IMG/VR virus record: IMGVR_UViG_3300017706_002223
Span: 1 to 21,842 of that record
Length of the DNA: 21,842 bases
Direction: 5' to 3' (one strand)
Source of the DNA: a virus
Part shown: positions 1,501 through 17,501 of the stretch, piece after piece
Layout: every line of letters starts with the position of its first letter
Numbering within the stretch: position 1 is the first letter of the stretch
Translations under genes and position numbers: made by a program
Notes under the pieces: model-generated
The model's database searches: none
What the model saw: the letters and a program-made list of their open reading frames with translations, nothing else
Told to the model about the DNA's origin: nothing

Positions 1501-4500
1501 ATGGCAGAAATAACATTTAAATCAGCGGGTGTAAAAACCAGAGAAATAGACCTGTCACAACCATCTAGGACCGGTCCAGTAGGAATACCTGCAGGTATAA
1601 TCGGAACATCTTTAGAAGGTCCGGCTTTTGTTCCTCTGACTTTTGCAAACTTCAGTGATTTTACAACAACATTTGGCAATTCTGATGGTGAAAAATTTGG
1701 TCCTATTGCTGTTAACCAGTGGTTAGCAAACGCGCAGGCTGTCACGTATATGAGAGTTTTAGGCGTAGGGAATGGATTACAAAGAAGTAATGTAGGTCAA
1801 GTTACAAATGCCGGATTTACTGTTGGTAACAGAATTATACAAGAAAACGGATTACTAGGAGACAATGCTTTTTCAACAGAATCTGCTACTGCTGCTGTGG
1901 AAGGTAGAACATATTTTCTTGGCTGTTTTATGTCTGAATCCAATGGGTCGACAGTTTTTAGTGAAGCAGGAATACAAGGAACAGCTGCACCAACATCGGC
2001 GACACTAGTAGATGCAATTGATATTGCAGGAATCGCTGCAGGTGATAAATTTACAATAACAGTACCTGCTGATTCCGGTGGAGATGGACTAGTATATACA
2101 GTTTTATTTGACACCACAACAAATATCGATTCTGACAGTGGTGCAAGAACCTATGGTGTGTCGACACAAAGAATTGCTGATGATAATGACGGTGCTGCTG
2201 TACTTATTTTAGCAATTAACGGCCAAAACGATCCTGGATCTCAGTACAAGTATGGTAATAACGACCATAGCGATAGTGGATTTGAGTTTAAAATACCGGG
2301 TATTACAGCAAGCACTGGTACATCTAGTTCTAAAATTACATTAACAATGGATGCACCAGGGCCAAGAGGTAACGTTGCAAATGTTCTAGCTGCTGTGACA
2401 GGATTTGAGGACGCTCTTTTGTTAGAAGCAGCATTCACTGGAGGAACAATACAAAACCAGTCTGTTCCAATCCTACGTGGTGTTCTCCTTGCACCAAGTG
2501 GTGTTATTCTTCACTTAAGCGGGAACCACGGGCAAAGATCGCAACCGCCAACAAAAGGTACAACCGCAAGATCATCAAATAATGTTGTTATGGGAAGAAA
2601 AGGTTCATTAACCGGTTCACTAAATACAGCAACTCAAGAGTTTGTTATGCTAATGAATGGTTATAACAATAGTGATCAAAGCAAGAAAACACATATTACA
2701 GCATCTTTTGACATGACAGCACCTAATTATTTTGCAAATGTGTTTAATACCAACCCATATAAAATTGAAGAAGAAGGTCACTTGCTCTATGGCCACTATG
2801 ATATATACCCAGACTTGGCTGCGGTCACAGGAAGTGGTACTATAAAAACAGGAAGGTATTCTGGAACAACTAGTCATGAAGACATTGCGCTTCTCTTAAC
2901 ATCATCTGTCGCAAGAGGGGCAACTGCTGCTAACAAACCTATTTATGAAGATTTTTCAGATAGATTCTCTCATGCAAAGACACCTTTTGTAATATCACAA
3001 GCTTTTGGAAATTCACCAAAAAGTTTATTTAGAATTCATCTTCTCTCAGCAGGTGCCGGTGTATCTGACAAATATAAGTTTTCGATTGAAAACATTAGAA
3101 AGTCGTCTTCTAGTACATCAGACTTTGGTACATTTGACTTGTTAGTTAGAGGATTTGACGACACTGATGAAGAACCTAAAGTCTTAGAATCATTTCGAGG
3201 CTTAAGTCTCAACAGAGGTTCAGATAGATATATAGGTAGAGTTGTTGGTGATCAACATATTTTTTACAACTTTGATGTTGCTAAATCTAGTCAAAAATTA
3301 ATTGTTGATGGAAACCACCCAGTAAGATCACGCTATATCAGAGTGGAAATGCATGATGACATTGAAAGCGGTAATATAGATAAATCGGCGCTTCCTATGG
3401 GATTCAGAGGGCCTGATCATCTTGTAACGAGTGGTTCACTATTGTCAAACGAAAAAGATTCATTATACACAGTTTCAACTGCAGTTCAATCATTGGTCGA
3501 ATTACCTATTCCTTATCGGAGAACTGTTTCAGTAGGTACCGGTTTAAGTAAAAAAGTTGATGGTAGATTTTTCTGGGGTGTTAACACAGTAAGACAAACC
3601 AGCGCGACACAACCTAACTTACCTAGCCTATTTGATAAATCATTTAACACATACACAAAACATTTTCCAAACCATAGAATAGGTCATCCTAATTTCTCAG
3701 TCGGAAATAATCCAGGTGCAGCTGATATAGGAGGTACAGTTCTAGACTGTGATCGATTTAACAATAATAAATTTACTCTGGAAAATGTGCTTGTGCGAAC
3801 CGGTTCAGATACTCTTGCTGATCCTGAATACTGGCTAAGTGCATCATACCAAAGATCAGGCGTTACGGCAAACGCAACAAATAAGACAAGGGCATTTTCT
3901 GTTGATGACTTAGGTAAGGTTAGCAATACTAAGTTTGCTAAATTTACATTTATAGCGCAAGGTGGATTTGATGGTGTTAATATGTTTGATGAAGAAAAAT
4001 CAAAGCTAACAAACACTGCCGTTTATCGTGAGGTGACTAATGACGAAGGTAGCGCTAGCGTAGCAAACAATACTGTCTCAGCATATAGAAAAGCTGTTGA
4101 AGTTATGAACTCAAAAACAGATGTAGATATCCAAGTATTGGCTGTGCCGGGCATTAGACATTCATCTGTTACAGACTTTGCAATACAGAAAATAGAAGAT
4201 AGATTTGATGCAATTTACATAATGGATATCGAAGAAAGGGATCAAGTCAACACTGTCATCACTTCTTCAGTCCAAAAGCCTCATGTTGCAAACACAGTGA
4301 CATCTTTTAAGAACCGAGCGCTCGACAGTTCTTTTGCAGCAGCTTATTTTCCAGATGTAATTGTTAAAGATCCAAGTACAAACACACTGGTTCAAGTTCC
4401 ACCTTCTGTTGCAGTTTTAGGTGCATATTCATTAAATGATAGAGTTGCTCATCCATGGTTTGCACCTGCAGGATTTGCGAGAGGCGCTCTAAATAGTGTA

Positions 4501-4950
4501 GAAATGGCTTCTGTCAGACTTAATAGATCTAATTTAGATGATTTATACGAAGCAGACATTAATCCAATAACAGCTTTTCCTGGAACTGGTGTCACAATAT
4601 GGGGACAGAAAACACTACAAGTTGCTAACTCTGCGTTAGACAGAATTAATGTGAGAAGACTTTTAATTAGTATAAGAAGAAAAGTTAGGAATGTAGCTAA
4701 TTCTCTTCTATTTGAACCTAATAGAGTAGAAACTTTAGAAAAATTTACATCTTTAGTCAATCCAATTCTTCAAAGAGTTCAAGAACAAAGTGGTATTGAT
4801 AGGTACAAAGCTGTTATTGATACTTCAACAACGACACAAGCAGATGTAGAAAATAATACAATACGTGGTAAGATATTTATTCAGCCCACACGTTCAGTTG
4901 AGTTTGTAGCACTAGATTTTGTTGTAACAAATGCAGGTTCAAATATTTAG
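1501..4950 (+). CDS. Tail sheath protein, second copy, oversized
   Basis: This is a second contractile-tail sheath subunit of 1149 aa; T4 gp18 is about 660 aa. ATG at 1501 follows a GGAG at 1490-1493. Residues 1-95 form the usual sheath N-terminus (an AGVKTREIDLS start, then a GPxxxP segment and a VTYMRVLG strand). Residues about 150-315 look like an inserted, Thr/Ser/Gly-rich beta domain, probably displayed on the outside of the tail. Residues about 490-620 resemble the middle sheath region (FDLLVRGFDD, VLESFRGLSLN). Residues about 745-1149 align with the preceding gene (FNNNKFTL, AVPGIRH, HPWFAPAGF, GQKTLQ, LDRINVRR, PTRSVEFVALDF), including the PF04984-type C-terminal domain. The sheath identity is sure; the boundaries and role of the inserted region are inferred from composition. 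It is followed by the tube gene, as in T4 (18-19). Confidence 0.95.
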   Translation: MAEITFKSAGVKTREIDLSQPSRTGPVGIPAGIIGTSLEGPAFVPLTFANFSDFTTTFGNSDGEKFGPIAVNQWLANAQAVTYMRVLGVGNGLQRSNVGQVTNAGFTVGNRIIQENGLLGDNAFSTESATAAVEGRTYFLGCFMSESNGSTVFSEAGIQGTAAPTSATLVDAIDIAGIAAGDKFTITVPADSGGDGLVYTVLFDTTTNIDSDSGARTYGVSTQRIADDNDGAAVLILAINGQNDPGSQYKYGNNDHSDSGFEFKIPGITASTGTSSSKITLTMDAPGPRGNVANVLAAVTGFEDALLLEAAFTGGTIQNQSVPILRGVLLAPSGVILHLSGNHGQRSQPPTKGTTARSSNNVVMGRKGSLTGSLNTATQEFVMLMNGYNNSDQSKKTHITASFDMTAPNYFANVFNTNPYKIEEEGHLLYGHYDIYPDLAAVTGSGTIKTGRYSGTTSHEDIALLLTSSVARGATAANKPIYEDFSDRFSHAKTPFVISQAFGNSPKSLFRIHLLSAGAGVSDKYKFSIENIRKSSSSTSDFGTFDLLVRGFDDTDEEPKVLESFRGLSLNRGSDRYIGRVVGDQHIFYNFDVAKSSQKLIVDGNHPVRSRYIRVEMHDDIESGNIDKSALPMGFRGPDHLVTSGSLLSNEKDSLYTVSTAVQSLVELPIPYRRTVSVGTGLSKKVDGRFFWGVNTVRQTSATQPNLPSLFDKSFNTYTKHFPNHRIGHPNFSVGNNPGAADIGGTVLDCDRFNNNKFTLENVLVRTGSDTLADPEYWLSASYQRSGVTANATNKTRAFSVDDLGKVSNTKFAKFTFIAQGGFDGVNMFDEEKSKLTNTAVYREVTNDEGSASVANNTVSAYRKAVEVMNSKTDVDIQVLAVPGIRHSSVTDFAIQKIEDRFDAIYIMDIEERDQVNTVITSSVQKPHVANTVTSFKNRALDSSFAAAYFPDVIVKDPSTNTLVQVPPSVAVLGAYSLNDRVAHPWFAPAGFARGALNSVEMASVRLNRSNLDDLYEADINPITAFPGTGVTIWGQKTLQVANSALDRINVRRLLISIRRKVRNVANSLLFEPNRVETLEKFTSLVNPILQRVQEQSGIDRYKAVIDTSTTTQADVENNTIRGKIFIQPTRSVEFVALDFVVTNAGSNI

Positions 4951-4985: not shown

Positions 4986-5477
4986 ATGGCAGAAACACTT
5001 TCAGTCACAGATATGTTACCAAATAAGTTTGAACCAAAAAGAGATTATCGCTGGGTTCTAGCAATTGAAGGTATCGATTCATTTTTAGTTAATGCAACTA
5101 AGCGACCCACAATTAATATTGGTAACTCACAAATAAAGTTTATTAATAGCTACCGACAAATTTCAAACGGAAAAGGTGTGTTTGGTGGTATTTCAGTAGA
5201 GCTACATGACCCTATTGCTCCTTCTGGCGCACAACAAGTAATGGAGTGGATTAGAACGCACTATGAGTCTGTTTCTGGCCGGGCAGGTTACACTGATTTT
5301 TTAAAGCGCGATTTACAGCTAAAGATGTTAGACCCGGTAGGTACTGTTGTTGAACTTTGGGATATTAAAGGTGCATTAATTACTAGTGCTGACTTTGGTT
5401 CGTTAGGGTACGAGAATGACGGTATTATGAAGATAAGCCTTAACTTAGAAGTTGACAACTGCGTACTTCAATTCTAA
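4986..5477 (+). CDS. 19: Tail tube protein (T4 gp19 family)
   Basis: This is the major subunit of the inner tail tube, which stacks as hexameric rings inside the sheath and carries DNA on ejection. It is 163 aa, the same length as T4 gp19. Typical family features are the N-terminal PNKFEPKRDYRWVLAIEGID segment, the SYRQISNGK loop, LHDPIAPSGAQQVMEWI, and the C-terminal WDIKGALITSADFG and LNLEVDNCVLQF strands. A strong Shine-Dalgarno (TAAGGAGA, 4973-4980) precedes the ATG, as expected for a protein needed in many copies. It lies directly after the sheath genes and just before a strong terminator, so it is probably the last gene of a high-output sheath/tube transcript. The assignment is very secure. 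Confidence 0.96.
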   Translation: MAETLSVTDMLPNKFEPKRDYRWVLAIEGIDSFLVNATKRPTINIGNSQIKFINSYRQISNGKGVFGGISVELHDPIAPSGAQQVMEWIRTHYESVSGRAGYTDFLKRDLQLKMLDPVGTVVELWDIKGALITSADFGSLGYENDGIMKISLNLEVDNCVLQF

Positions 5478-5507: not shown

Positions 5508-5537
5508 AGCTTCTGTACAATGTACAGAAGCTTTTTT
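5508..5537 (+). terminator. Intrinsic terminator after the tail tube gene
   Basis: A perfect 11-bp stem (AGCTTCTGTAC at 5508-5518 pairing with GTACAGAAGCT at 5522-5532) has a 3-nt loop and is followed at once by a T run (5533-5537). This is a classic Rho-independent terminator. It sits 30 nt after the tail tube stop codon and separates the sheath/tube genes from the chaperone and tape-measure genes. Confidence 0.9.
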
Positions 5538-5555: not shown

Positions 5556-6356
5556 ATGAATGAAGGAATGCCAACAAGTAATGTTATGAAAGATGAATTT
5601 GGGTGGGAAGTACCTGTTGAGAGTGTACCCTTACCATCAAGAGGGGTTATTTATTCTCCTGATAGTTTATTATATAATACTGAAGTTTTACAAATAAAAG
5701 CTATGACTGCCAAAGAAGAAGACATTTTAACCAGTCAAGCGTATATAAAAGAAAATTTAGTTGTTGAAAAATTAATTCAATCTTGTTTAATTGAAAAATC
5801 AATTGATGTTAATGAGTTAATCACTGGTGACAAAAACGCACTAATGGTTTCAATTAGAATTACTGGTTATGGCTCAGACTATAAAGTTGCACATTCTTGT
5901 ACTAACTGCGGTGAAAACAACCAGATTAATGTTAACTTATCACAACTTGAAATTAAAAGATTGACAGAAGATCCAGTTGAATTGGGTAGAAATATTTTCG
6001 AATTTGTTCTTCCCGTTACAAATAAAAAAGTTAATTTTAAGTTCTTAAATGGTCACGATCAAAAAGAAATTGCTTTAATTGAGAAAAGACTCAAAAAAGC
6101 AGGAATACACTATGATAATCCTGTAACGGGTTATTTAGAAAACGCTATTATTTCTATTGATGGTGTTACAGATAAAAATAAGATAAAACATTTTGTTATG
6201 AATATGCCAGCTCTAGATAGTAGAAAGTTAAGGCAGCACATCAAAAGATCCGAACCAGGTATCGATATGACGTGGAATTATAACTGCAGTCAGTGTGGGC
6301 ATGATAATAATATCAATCTCCCCATAACCCCTGAGTTTTTTTGGCCCAGTATATAG
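5556..6356 (+). CDS. 26: gp26-type baseplate hub/tail assembly chaperone protein (short form)
   Basis: This 266-aa protein is of the T4 gp26 / T4_baseplate (PF12322-type) family. In T4, gp26 and gp51 are needed to assemble the baseplate hub around tape measure gp29. Features: LPSRGVIY at residues 26-33, the AMTAKEEDILTS block at 49-60, a GDKNALMVSIRITGYG block at 91-106, and two CxxC pairs (115-118 and 244-247) that probably bind one zinc. The start is ATG 5556, with GGAG at 5544-5547. The in-frame ATG at 5520 lies in the loop of the upstream terminator hairpin and is rejected. The stop (TAG, 6354-6356) comes four codons after a TTTTTTT run. The +1 frame is open across this point for 87 further codons, so a longer 349-aa product is likely. 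Family call is good; the gp26 symbol is by similarity of type and position. Confidence 0.8.
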   Translation: MNEGMPTSNVMKDEFGWEVPVESVPLPSRGVIYSPDSLLYNTEVLQIKAMTAKEEDILTSQAYIKENLVVEKLIQSCLIEKSIDVNELITGDKNALMVSIRITGYGSDYKVAHSCTNCGENNQINVNLSQLEIKRLTEDPVELGRNIFEFVLPVTNKKVNFKFLNGHDQKEIALIEKRLKKAGIHYDNPVTGYLENAIISIDGVTDKNKIKHFVMNMPALDSRKLRQHIKRSEPGIDMTWNYNCSQCGHDNNINLPITPEFFWPSI

Positions 6357-6398
6357 TTGGAGAGAAAATATACTCGAAGAATTCTTTGCTCTCCAACT
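6336..6398 (+). promoter_or_regulatory. Probable programmed +1 (or -2) ribosomal frameshift site with downstream stem
   Basis: Seven T residues (6336-6342) read as TTT TTT TGG in the gp26-like frame. A tRNA-Phe at 6339-6341 can re-pair perfectly one base forward at 6340-6342, entering a frame open from 6328 to 6606. Twelve nucleotides later begins a perfect 10-bp inverted repeat, AGTTGGAGAG (6355-6364) with CTCTCCAACT (6389-6398), separated by 24 nt that themselves contain the palindrome AAGAATTCTT (6377-6386). The zero-frame stop overlaps the foot of the stem. The slippery-run, spacer and stem layout is that of a recoding signal. A homopolymer sequencing error would also join the frames and cannot be excluded here. 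Confidence 0.65.
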
Positions 6399-6408
6399 CC
6401 ACCTCAAC

Positions 6409-6606
6409 ATGTCTTATTCAGAGGTGCACCAGTTACCAATACGCTACCGCCGTTGGTTTCTGTCTAGACTAGTGAAACATTTTAATGAAAAGAATGAAGC
6501 ATACGACGATGCGAAGAAAAGCAGTACACCAAAAGGTAATAATCATTCTAATTTAGAAAAGTTATCTCAGTTTCAATCTCAAGTAAAAAGTAAGTATCGA
6601 ACATAG
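6409..6606 (+). CDS. Frameshift extension of the gp26-like protein (possible gp51-like part)
   Basis: This frame ends at 6606. From its first ATG (6409) it gives 65 aa, but no Shine-Dalgarno precedes that ATG (upstream bases are CCACCTCAAC), and the frame is open back to 6328. Read through a frameshift at the T7 run it adds 87 residues to the gp26-like protein. The segment before the ATG (ILEEFFALQLHLN) continues naturally into the MSYSEVHQLPIRYRRWFLSR stretch. This 'E..F.L...hl..s...v..lP...RrWF' pattern resembles the C-terminal parts of tail assembly chaperones found just before tape-measure genes. A match to T4 gp51 is only a suggestion from context. It may be made solely as a fusion; independent translation is less likely. 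Confidence 0.65.
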   Translation: MSYSEVHQLPIRYRRWFLSRLVKHFNEKNEAYDDAKKSSTPKGNNHSNLEKLSQFQSQVKSKYRT

Positions 6607-6631: not shown

Positions 6632-8569
6632 ATGGCAGAATTTGATCAAGATAAATTAGAAGCAGCAATTACCGGAGCTATTGCGGCAGGTTTTGCGTCT
6701 TCTCGATCTGGAACAGGCGGTGGTAGTACACCAAGTAGCCCACGCCCACCTACAGACGATAGCGGATCACCAACGCCAGATATTTCACCAACTTTACCTA
6801 GCTTAGACGATGACGCAACAACAGCTGCCGCAAAAACGCAACGTGAAGAAACAATAAAATCCCTTAAGCGGGCTTCTGGTACGTTCACTGGATTTGCCGG
6901 CGGTGTAATGAAGATGCTAGGTGAGTCAACCAAGATGTATCTCGATGGTGCTGCTAGTCTTAACAAGGAACTTGATGAAGAAATATCTTATTTTAGACAG
7001 ATTCAAGAAAGTTTTGGCGGTGTGACATTTGAAGCATTTGCTGCTGGTGAGGCAATTGGTGGATTAGCAGGTCAAGCACTAGACGCTCAACTCCACCTAG
7101 GTCAAGTAGGTTCTGCAGGTAAAGAGTCTGCTTTAGAAATTAAGTCCGGCGCGATGGCTGGTAAAAATGCGCTACTTGAACTTTTTCAGGACCCACTCGA
7201 ACCTGCAAAAATGTTTTCTGAAGTAATGATTGACGTTGCAGACACAAACTTCACTTTGGCACAATCTTTACAAGAACAAGGTGACGCTGAGATGGAACGA
7301 ATAGCAGTCATCAGAAAAAGAATGGGTGTTGACTCGAGGACAATGGGTAACATTTTAAGGCGTGAATATGCATTTACTGGTGAAGCTTCATCTAAAATAT
7401 TTGAGGACATTGCTAGTGTATCAGTCGCGCTTTCAGAGCAGACTGGTGCTTCAGCTAATGACTTAAAGTCTGATATCTTGGATATTATGCAAGATACAAA
7501 ATTGTTTGGTGATATTGGAGTTGACTCAGCCGGTAGAATAGCCACATCTTTAAATCAATTAGGATTAGACTTTCAGACTTTTAAAAGCATGACTAGCCAA
7601 TTTATGAATTTTGATAGCGCAGCTGAGAAAATGGGCGATCTATCTGCACTCTTCGGTATTCAAATGGATGCTATGGAGATGACATATCTTGCAAATGAAG
7701 ATCAAGAAGAGTTTCTTTTTAGAATGAGAGAAGAAATTTTAGATGCTGGTTTAGATGTTGAAAACATGTCTAAGACACGACAAAGAGCTTTGACTGATCA
7801 ATTAGGACTAGAGTCTATTGAACAGATGCGACAATTTATGGACACAGGAATTCAACCTGATCAGGTTGCGATGGAAGCAGCGACAGATTCTGCAAAAACA
7901 ATGGACGGAATGGCAACAGCAATTGATAAGTTTGGTGGTGCTTACGAAGGTTCTTATAGAGGCGCTGCAGAATTTGAAGAGTCTTTAAGAAATCAAGCAA
8001 GGTATACCAGTTCTATTGCGGAAGATATAGCAAAAGTTAGAAAAGAGTCGGGATTAATACCTGGTGAATTCCAGAATTTTCAGTTACCTCCGGATGCTAT
8101 AGAAAGTGCAAGAAAAATGCTGGCCTTGGATTTTGCTGGAATTGAGACGTTTAGAACTAAGTTAGCACCAGCATTTAAAGCACTTGGAGAAATGACAGCT
8201 AATTTTGCAGCAGAAACTGTGAATACAGGGTTAGAATTTGTTGGTATAGAAGCTCTATCATCAGGAGACTTAAATGTGAAAGGTGAAGTAAAAGTTGCAA
8301 CTGATGAGAAAGGTCAGCAAGTAATTACGCAAGTAAACGAATCTGCAAACAAGCAAAGTGAAAGACATGCCCAGATTGAAAATAAAACGATGGAACTAGC
8401 TGTTAACCAAGAGAGTATGCAAACTGATGTTACTGGTTTAATTGACGCTATGAAAGAAGATAAAAACATAAATGTTACGTTCCAACTAAATGATCAAATG
8501 ATGGCAACACAGTTATTTAATATATTGCAAGAAAAGAAAGGTACTTTTGCAATAAGGCCGGACCAATGA
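6632..8569 (+). CDS. Tail tape measure protein (gp29-like)
   Basis: This 645-aa protein is in the position and of the type of the tail tape measure (T4 gp29, 590 aa), which fills the growing tail tube, fixes its length and starts from the baseplate hub. Residues 1-25 are Ala/Gly-rich. Residues 25-60 form a Gly/Ser/Thr/Pro low-complexity linker. The rest is almost entirely helical, with Ala/Gly-rich amphipathic stretches (TGFAGGVMKML near 85 and AFAAGEAIGGLAGQAL near 134-149) and a long run of predicted helices in 170-480. The C-terminal 100 residues are polar. The start has only a weak AAGTGAG-type ribosome-binding site (6619-6625). The next gene overlaps by ATGA. Function is inferred from composition, its place directly after the gp26-like/frameshift pair, and the hub genes downstream; no catalytic motif is seen. 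Confidence 0.72.
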   Translation: MAEFDQDKLEAAITGAIAAGFASSRSGTGGGSTPSSPRPPTDDSGSPTPDISPTLPSLDDDATTAAAKTQREETIKSLKRASGTFTGFAGGVMKMLGESTKMYLDGAASLNKELDEEISYFRQIQESFGGVTFEAFAAGEAIGGLAGQALDAQLHLGQVGSAGKESALEIKSGAMAGKNALLELFQDPLEPAKMFSEVMIDVADTNFTLAQSLQEQGDAEMERIAVIRKRMGVDSRTMGNILRREYAFTGEASSKIFEDIASVSVALSEQTGASANDLKSDILDIMQDTKLFGDIGVDSAGRIATSLNQLGLDFQTFKSMTSQFMNFDSAAEKMGDLSALFGIQMDAMEMTYLANEDQEEFLFRMREEILDAGLDVENMSKTRQRALTDQLGLESIEQMRQFMDTGIQPDQVAMEAATDSAKTMDGMATAIDKFGGAYEGSYRGAAEFEESLRNQARYTSSIAEDIAKVRKESGLIPGEFQNFQLPPDAIESARKMLALDFAGIETFRTKLAPAFKALGEMTANFAAETVNTGLEFVGIEALSSGDLNVKGEVKVATDEKGQQVITQVNESANKQSERHAQIENKTMELAVNQESMQTDVTGLIDAMKEDKNINVTFQLNDQMMATQLFNILQEKKGTFAIRPDQ

Positions 8570-16425: not shown

Positions 16426-16436
16426 AATAATTGTAT

Positions 16437-17501
16437 ATGGAATTAGTTAATAACAAAATTAAATCGCTTAACATTAGTGGCGATCACTCACTATCAGGTA
16501 AAAGACATGGTATTGTCTTTAATAAAGATTCAAACATTAGTCTAGATATAGAAACACTTTCATTAATAAGAAGATTATCGAATCTAGATAATATAAAAAC
16601 AATAGTTGAATATTATCCTGAATTAAGCGTTCTAAATTCATCTGGTAGTTTAAATTTTAAGATTCTCTTAGGTAATAAAAAGTCATCAGAATACGGTGTT
16701 TATTTAAGAAACAAAATAGAAGAGAGCTTAAAATTAATAACAGACTATCACACAGTAATTTTTCCTATAAGAATTCAGTGTTACAAAAAATTAAGCAAGG
16801 TAATGCTCGATGGCAATGTTTTAGAAACGCCAGTATATAATCATGCCGGCGTAACAGGTAGAACGAGTATCACAAAAGGTTTTAATTTTCTAACACTAAA
16901 AAAAGATAAGAGACAGAATATACAACCAGTAAACAAAGAAATGTGCTTGGTAGAAGTTGATTTTAAATCTTGTGAACCTTTCTTTTATCTTAAATCTAAT
17001 AATTTTAACATTGATAGTGACGACGTCTATTTGTGGTTGTGCGAAAAATATAATATTGAGATGAAAAATAGAGACTATATTAAAAGAGGAATATTATCAA
17101 TGATATACGGTGCCAATGAAAACACAATATCAAAGATAATGAGAATATCTAAAAATAAAGTTTTGACAATAAAACGTGACCTAGGTCTAGATGTGCTTAA
17201 AGAAAAGCTACAGAATGATTATGATAAGAAAGGTTTCTTTTTAAATTATTACGGAAGACCAATAACAAACGACAACAATTTAATTAATTATTACATTCAA
17301 TCGTCTGCTGTTGATTACTGCTCGCTAGCTTTTGTAAAGTTCTGTCAGGATAACAATGTCCAACCATCTTATTTTATTCACGACAGCATGACGTTTCAAT
17401 GTAATAAAGATCAGCTAGAAGAAATTTTAAAAATTAAAATTATAACAGAGCCACATTCTAATATCTCAATTCCTGTAGAATTTAACTTGCTTTATAAATA
17501 G
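16437..17501 (+). CDS. Minimal family-A DNA polymerase (no exonuclease domain)
   Basis: 354 aa counted from ATG 16437; a TTG six bases upstream is possible, and neither start has a clear Shine-Dalgarno. The pol I-type polymerase motifs occur in order: TGR at 140-142 with RQNIQP at 159-164 (thumb/palm entry); motif A VEVDFKSCE with Asp175 and Glu180, spaced as D705/E710 of E. coli Pol I; motif B with R212, K216, Y224, G225, spaced as R754/K758/Y766/G767; and motif C IHDS with His315, Asp316. So both catalytic aspartates are present. Position 220, matching Pol I Phe762, is Leu, and motif C Glu883 is Ser317. The N-terminal 135 residues are too short for a 3'-5' exonuclease and show no exonuclease motifs. 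Polymerase activity is inferred; a specialised repair or replication role is possible. Confidence 0.82.
   Translation: MELVNNKIKSLNISGDHSLSGKRHGIVFNKDSNISLDIETLSLIRRLSNLDNIKTIVEYYPELSVLNSSGSLNFKILLGNKKSSEYGVYLRNKIEESLKLITDYHTVIFPIRIQCYKKLSKVMLDGNVLETPVYNHAGVTGRTSITKGFNFLTLKKDKRQNIQPVNKEMCLVEVDFKSCEPFFYLKSNNFNIDSDDVYLWLCEKYNIEMKNRDYIKRGILSMIYGANENTISKIMRISKNKVLTIKRDLGLDVLKEKLQNDYDKKGFFLNYYGRPITNDNNLINYYIQSSAVDYCSLAFVKFCQDNNVQPSYFIHDSMTFQCNKDQLEEILKIKIITEPHSNISIPVEFNLLYK
17493..17500 (+). promoter_or_regulatory. TATAAATA, match to T4-type late promoter core
   Basis: An exact TATAAATA overlaps the polymerase stop codon, 9 nt before the next ATG (17510). In T4, TATAAATA is the whole late promoter core (about -13 to -6). 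Used that way here, the transcript would start about four bases before the ATG, giving a nearly leaderless mRNA. Chance occurrence in AT-rich DNA is quite possible. Confidence 0.3.

Follow-up and report, generated by a model that had tools for sequence, protein, structure and literature searches.

A probable programmed +1 ribosomal frameshift in the gp26-type tail gene of a T4-like phage, with probable two-form arrangements in the T4 supergroup

Introduction

Does the gp26-type gene of this phage yield a single protein, ending where its frame stops, or do some ribosomes change frame close to its end and continue into a second, overlapping frame? The locus lies in a window (the whole stretch of DNA analysed here) of 21,842 bases, which has the same extent as IMG/VR record IMGVR_UViG_3300017706_002223. 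The fragment comes from a T4-like phage with a contractile tail and encodes sheath, a gp19-type tube, a gp26-type protein, a presumed tape measure, baseplate and a gp32-type protein. According to a review, G-T frameshifting is widespread and conserved among long-tailed phages, "except T4" (PMC5009743). T4 gp51 has been described as an essential protein of unknown function (PMC3004832). A search of the open-licence literature returned no earlier report of the gp26/gp51 frameshift considered here.

Here we report that a programmed ribosomal frameshift, most likely +1 and at a UUU_U site, is highly likely to occur near the end of this gp26-type (PF12322) gene, giving a short and a long form, as judged from the conservation of the site and of the frame offset across relatives.

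Results

The locus and its neighbourhood

The features described below between positions 4986 and 8569 lie on the plus strand. The tail tube gene (gp19 type, 163 aa; positions 4986-5477) matches phrog_4542 (E 4.7e-20) and, below the Pfam cut-off, PF06841 (E 0.0076). It is followed by the gp26-like gene (5556-6356), whose ATG at 5556 is preceded by GGAG and whose frame 0 encodes 266 aa matching both PF12322, T4_baseplate (67.6 bits against a cut-off of 24.5, E 1.7e-18), and the baseplate hub family phrog_150 (E 3.3e-23). In frame 0 the gene ends GAG TTT TTT TGG CCC AGT ATA TAG. Checking the sequence directly, we confirmed what the earlier note on this DNA had described, with every coordinate correct: seven Ts at 6336-6342, read by the gp26-like frame as TTT TTT TGG with a stop four codons later; a +1 frame open from 6328 to 6606 whose first ATG, at 6409, has no Shine-Dalgarno sequence (the bases ahead of it are CTCCACCTCAAC); and a perfect 10-bp inverted repeat starting 12 nt past the T run (6355-6364 with 6389-6398). 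The candidate shift site, TTT TTT TGG at 6336-6344, is conserved in relatives and would place UUU_U in the P site and UGG in the A site. Beyond it the +1 frame adds an 87-aa extension (6343-6606), GPVYSWRENILEEFF..., a gp51 C-terminal-like domain of a predicted long form that would comprise 349 aa after a +1 shift and 350 aa after a -2 shift.

Downstream lies an ORF of 645 aa (6632-8569), by its position a probable tape measure protein and the expected client. Pfam-type and phrog profile searches gave no family match for this ORF; homologues occupy the equivalent place in about 40 relatives, and in immuto and LIS04 the neighbour downstream of the gp26-like gene carries a tape measure annotation.

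Between the tube and chaperone genes is a hairpin resembling an intrinsic terminator (5508-5532; 11 pairs, then TTTTT). Terminator-like elements precede the gp26-like gene in 43 of 102 relatives, as against 15 of 306 random windows, and in SP-15 a terminator is annotated at the equivalent position; the hairpin could keep the levels of chaperone and tape measure under that of the tube. Elsewhere the window carries two consecutive tail sheath-type ORFs (3-1478 and 1501-4950), the second of 1149 aa with a long N-terminal addition. An ORF between the structural genes and the gp32-like gene (16431-17501) has a match, below the Pfam cut-off (E 1e-6), to the C-terminal portion of family A DNA polymerase.

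Conservation of the site and the frame offset

Two IMG/VR scans produced 111 contigs, and the counts given here use the 102 distinct gp26-like proteins with the motif. A UUU_U or CUU_U site together with an open +1 extension is present in 101 of the 102. The P-site codon is TTT in 96, CTT in five and TTC in one (L059). One codon earlier, 100 have TTT and two, L059 and L066, have TTC; the A site is occupied by TGG in 100 and by TAC in two, and the fourth base of the site is always U. The variants found are TTT CTT TGG (five times), TTT TTT TAC (twice) and TTC TTT TGG (once). Among the 95 relatives uncut by a contig end, the +1 frame stays open for at least 53 aa past the site in 94 (median 78 aa), the sole short extension being that of L059 (8 aa), while the -1 frame closes almost immediately in most relatives (median 1 aa). 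Wherever the second domain could be matched to that of the window by tblastn, it lay in the +1 frame. The earlier note had suggested aligning relatives across this region, and its expectation was borne out, with the T run and frame offset kept in about 100 of them.

As a control for codon choice within the same phylogeny, we used the 86 alignment columns with a degenerate residue common to at least 60 sequences. Codon conservation is highest in the two Phe columns of the site, which take first and second place among the 86 (96/96 and 100/101 TTT); the remaining conserved Phe columns are 79-82% TTT, and the median codon conservation of the gene is 48%. Chance is excluded as the source of the site and frame offset because of this ranking and because 101 of 102 relatives keep both.

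Translation of the second frame from a start of its own finds little footing in these sequences. No +1-frame ATG, GTG or TTG occurs near the junction in 51 of 100 relatives, and an ATG with an SD-like sequence ahead is found in only one of 100, so that the lack of a ribosome-binding site noted in the window extends across about 100 relatives. Within the clade of the window, the second domain is conserved from the site itself onwards (GPVHSWRENILEEFF), starting upstream of the ATG at 6409.

A tblastn search of isolate phages with the +1 domain gave no match, and isolates were found via the gp26 domain instead. The Flavobacterium phage immuto and the Microcystis phage Mel-JY01 have an identical frame offset. 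Several further phages show other junctions. In SP-15, LIS04 and GXN1 the domain is in the +1 frame but the sites are TTT TTT CAC, TTT TTT AGT and TTC TTT CGT, respectively; the three share CC CGA TT a few bases past the junction, and the shift site is ambiguous (L118 ~3150-3178, L119 ~3190-3211, L116 ~3208-3232). The jumbo phages BF, XacN1 and LR756511 (L121, L122 and L120) have a short ORF in the -1 (+2) frame behind the gp26-like one; in BF the annotation gives this ORF an ATG of its own that overlaps the stop, and it may be a separate coupled gene. Streptomyces phage LuckySocke (L125 ~3140-3166) has a possible +1 extension after TTT CAG GAA CTC TGA, possibly an RF2-like stop shift at CUC_UGA.

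Proposed direction and mechanism of the shift

In the proposed mechanism, the majority of ribosomes would end four codons past the site and give the short form, whereas in a minority the P-site tRNA-Phe would move from UUU to the overlapping UUU, one base forward, with UGG waiting in the A site, and the long form would acquire an extra alpha-helical C-terminal domain. The P-site codons of the +1 relatives are just the two types used by RF2 shift sites, namely CUU_U and, in a few species, UUU_U (PMC5009743): 96 have UUU_U and five CUU_U, and the remaining one of the 102 uses -1. UUU_U is weaker than CUU_U as a +1 site in E. coli (PMC5009743). No SD-like element was seen immediately upstream of the site in the relatives' listed site sequences.

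The second frame could equally be reached by a -2 slip on the U run, which would add one Phe (FFF-GP), and such a shift is established for the phage Mu chaperone (PMC5009743). We favour +1 because in L066 (TTC TTT TGG) and the isolate GXN1 (TTC TTT CGT) a -2 slip would force tRNA-Phe onto UCU, which a +1 slip would not; the CUU_U variant, itself an RF2 +1 site, and the U kept as fourth base throughout the 102 also argue against -2. We nevertheless retain -2 as an unlikely but serious alternative, since the first Phe codon, which it requires to be TTT, is TTT in 100 of 102 relatives, and since the site of the distant relative LIS04 (TTT TTT AGT) suits it better, or suits another site. Far less probable is a separate small gene, using its own or a non-canonical start or reinitiation past the frame-0 stop. 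Annotators do call a short gp51 gene in cyanophages, and some relatives with a -1 arrangement (the S-PM2 clade, CZ01 and YB07) have an ATG at or right after the stop; however, a start near the junction is lacking in half of the window's family, SD-preceded ATGs are almost absent, protein conservation begins upstream of the ATG at 6409, and the codon conservation of the slip site would be left unexplained.

The T run itself invites two further readings. RNA polymerase might slip on the seven Ts, present in most members, to give mRNAs with six Us, but this is very improbable because TTT CTT TGG (five of 102, and immuto) and TTC TTT TGG interrupt the run, leaving no more than four consecutive Ts, and yet keep the +1 frame. 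Homopolymers are prone to sequencing error, and a miscount (six or eight Ts, which the earlier note had named as a way to be wrong) or a decayed gene would also produce an apparent break. This is refuted, with a negligible residual probability, by the matching offset in about 100 independent contigs and in the isolates immuto and Mel-JY01.

A -1 family in cyanophages and other T4-like phages

Cyanophage annotations place a short "gp51" behind gp26; it lies in the -1 frame, directly past U_UUU_UUC or U_UUU_UUU. A scan with S-PM2 gp26 gave 57 distinct cyanophage proteins, and all 57 have U_UUU_UUC with the domain in -1; phiN3, Cr30, Vibrio CZ01, Stenotrophomonas YB07 and Rhizobium IG49 fit this pattern. 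In profile comparisons, the +1 and -1 second domains matched each other (prob 94.3, score 40; best of 40 column shuffles 15), as did the -1 domain and the C-terminus of T4 gp51 (prob 95.4, score 42; best shuffle 19), with the shuffled controls for both comparisons reaching a prob of at most 14. The -1 domain profile also finds T4-type gp51 proteins (E 2e-5 to 5e-9 in a small test set).

According to Sullivan and colleagues (PMC3037559), gp51 in cyanophages reaches about 20% of its normal length, the first ~200 residues are absent from the cyanophage and vibriophage copies, and Aeh1 is the only phage in which gp51 is missing. Under the frameshift model, Aeh1 should carry an unannotated domain in the -1 frame, and it does: GAT TTT TTC GAC TGA, with the site U_UUU_UUC, is followed in -1 by FFRLTLVNDSVYDLFNVNYEMHKEGWTIEELETTTPFERAIY..., which the profile detects with E 8e-16 in a small test set. 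The same arrangement is found in Aeromonas AS-szw, phage 65, Cronobacter S13 and Vibrio VmeM-32. The model explains both the "truncated" cyanophage gp51 and the "missing" gp51 of Aeh1.

The single exception among the 102 relatives of the window points to a change of direction within the family. In L059 the U run has been lost and the second domain (KFLLAFPVDPEYKPLIHESIFNLVYFSEG...) occupies the -1 frame; the sequence reads GTA AAT TTC TTC, within which is the canonical -1 heptamer A_AAU_UUC. The tree places L059 inside the +1 clade, and by this placement its lineage appears to have switched from +1 to -1.

Downstream structure

The inverted repeat past the site can form a stem-loop (6355-6398), a possible frameshift stimulator in the window's clade. 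Its stability as a single sequence is modest (z -1.6, with 11 of 200 shuffles equally good). Across 18 close relatives, 84% of cells pair at the homologous positions, as against 36-49% when the positions are slid; one pair clearly covaries and one is mostly broken. Over 100 loci, the 75 nt past the site are slightly more stable in folding than control stretches from those genes (mean z -0.73 against -0.18, p 6e-5), the window having z -2.3. A second clade has a different hairpin of 6 bp about 6 nt past the site, with changes on both sides in five of six pairs; its covariation score exceeds that of all 500 shuffles, which ignore relatedness. The window stem was also considered as a general stimulator and rejected, as homologous offsets in other clades mostly offer 2-7 of the 10 possible pairs. 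The stem conservation anticipated by the earlier note holds in the close clade and fails in the others, which have different hairpins or none evident. It is plausible that downstream structure is a clade-specific stimulator and not a defining part of the arrangement.

gp26 and gp51 as two genes in T4

PF12322 is matched by both T4 proteins, gp26 (E 9e-64) and gp51 (E 4e-52), the match in gp51 covering residues 1-201 with ~48 residues beyond. T4 and Cronus have no frame break and two PF12322 genes each; a single PF12322 gene is present in each of S-PM2, P-HM2, S-SM2, phiN3, Cr30, Melnitz, CZ01, YB07, SP-15, GXN1, C48C1 and IG49, and in each of ten large +1 relatives. Compared directly, the C domain of the +1 family and T4 gp51 did not match (prob below 1), and for that reason we accept a link between them only via the -1 family or via the pooled +1/-1 profile, which matches T4 gp51 with prob 80.7.

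These comparisons refine the reading given in the earlier note. That gp26 and gp51 are separate genes in T4 is correct, although gp51 is itself a gp26-type domain and a C-terminal domain joined in one frame; similarly, the idea of short and long gp26/gp51-type forms is supported, except that the second frame of the window corresponds to the C-terminal domain of gp51 and not to the whole protein. Most likely, T4 and its close relatives carry the short/long pair as paralogous genes, 26 (short) and 51 (long).

Discussion

On the evidence of sequence, a two-form chaperone of the G/GT type is very likely to be a feature of the T4 supergroup as a whole, made by a +1 shift in the window's family, by a -1 shift in cyanophages, Aeh1, S13 and KVP40-like phages, or from a duplicated pair with gp51 pre-fused in T4, L059 having switched.

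If gene position and the lambda gpG/gpGT analogy are a guide, the short form would coat the tape measure protein, with the added domain of the long form recruiting tail tube subunits. We infer a gpG/gpGT-like role from the position of the gene, the short/long architecture and the review's remark on T4, and the synthesis of both products, their ratio and their binding to tape measure and tube are to be read in the same way. One feature typical of G/GT-type genes is present: a second ORF in another frame overlaps the end of the first, has no start of its own and follows a conserved slippery site. A tube gene lies upstream (by profile match), and the ORF downstream would, by position, be the tape measure.

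An AlphaFold2 model of the short form (pLDDT 92.5) had as its most probable match in the PDB the HK97 tail assembly chaperone (gp13; 2ob9), a non-significant match (prob 0.30, E 1.9) that we treat as a lead and not as proof; a single-sequence AlphaFold model of the long form (pLDDT 35.5) was of no use. Sequence searches of the PDB with the gp26-like protein and T4 gp51 found no relatives.

The frameshift could be real and its products nonetheless serve assembly of the baseplate hub rather than chaperoning of tape measure and tube. One paper counts T4 gp26 and gp51 among the hub assembly chaperones (PMC3004832), and the sequence families are named for the baseplate hub. We consider this rather improbable, as the gene lies just past the tube and just ahead of the presumed tape measure, and the two-form logic fits G/GT, as does the fact that gp51 is absent from the virion. 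The T4 tape measure, gp29, is itself a hub protein, and the two roles are therefore compatible.

If a gpG/gpGT-like role is correct, gp26 and gp51 would have a single explanation, as the short and long forms of a chaperone of gp29, and T4, which probably has the pair as duplicated genes, would cease to be an exception to the G/GT rule. The annotation of many cyanophage and T4-like genomes would be corrected. Furthermore, +1 shifts, -1 shifts and two genes form a natural series within one family, which should be useful for studying how frameshifts arise, switch and are replaced.

Among known systems, the site resembles that of bacterial RF2 (prfB), in which a P-site CUU_U or UUU_U slips to UUU; it differs in having a sense codon, UGG (or UAC), in the A site instead of the UGA stop, and in showing no SD-like stimulator ahead of it. 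A tail chaperone made by a +1 shift has a likely counterpart in the archaeal myovirus HSTV-2, for which +1 is considered very likely (PMC5009743). Lambda gpG/gpGT, with its analogues in P2 and Mu, has no known sequence similarity to the proteins described here, which belong to PF12322 and have two Cys-pair motifs; the window's lineage differs further in its +1 site and its larger first domain (about 260 aa). T4 gp26 and gp51 share PF12322 with the window's protein, and the last ~50 aa of gp51 are homologous to the -1-family domain, itself homologous to that of the window. T4 has two separate genes with unbroken frames, whereas the window has a single gene with two overlapping frames.
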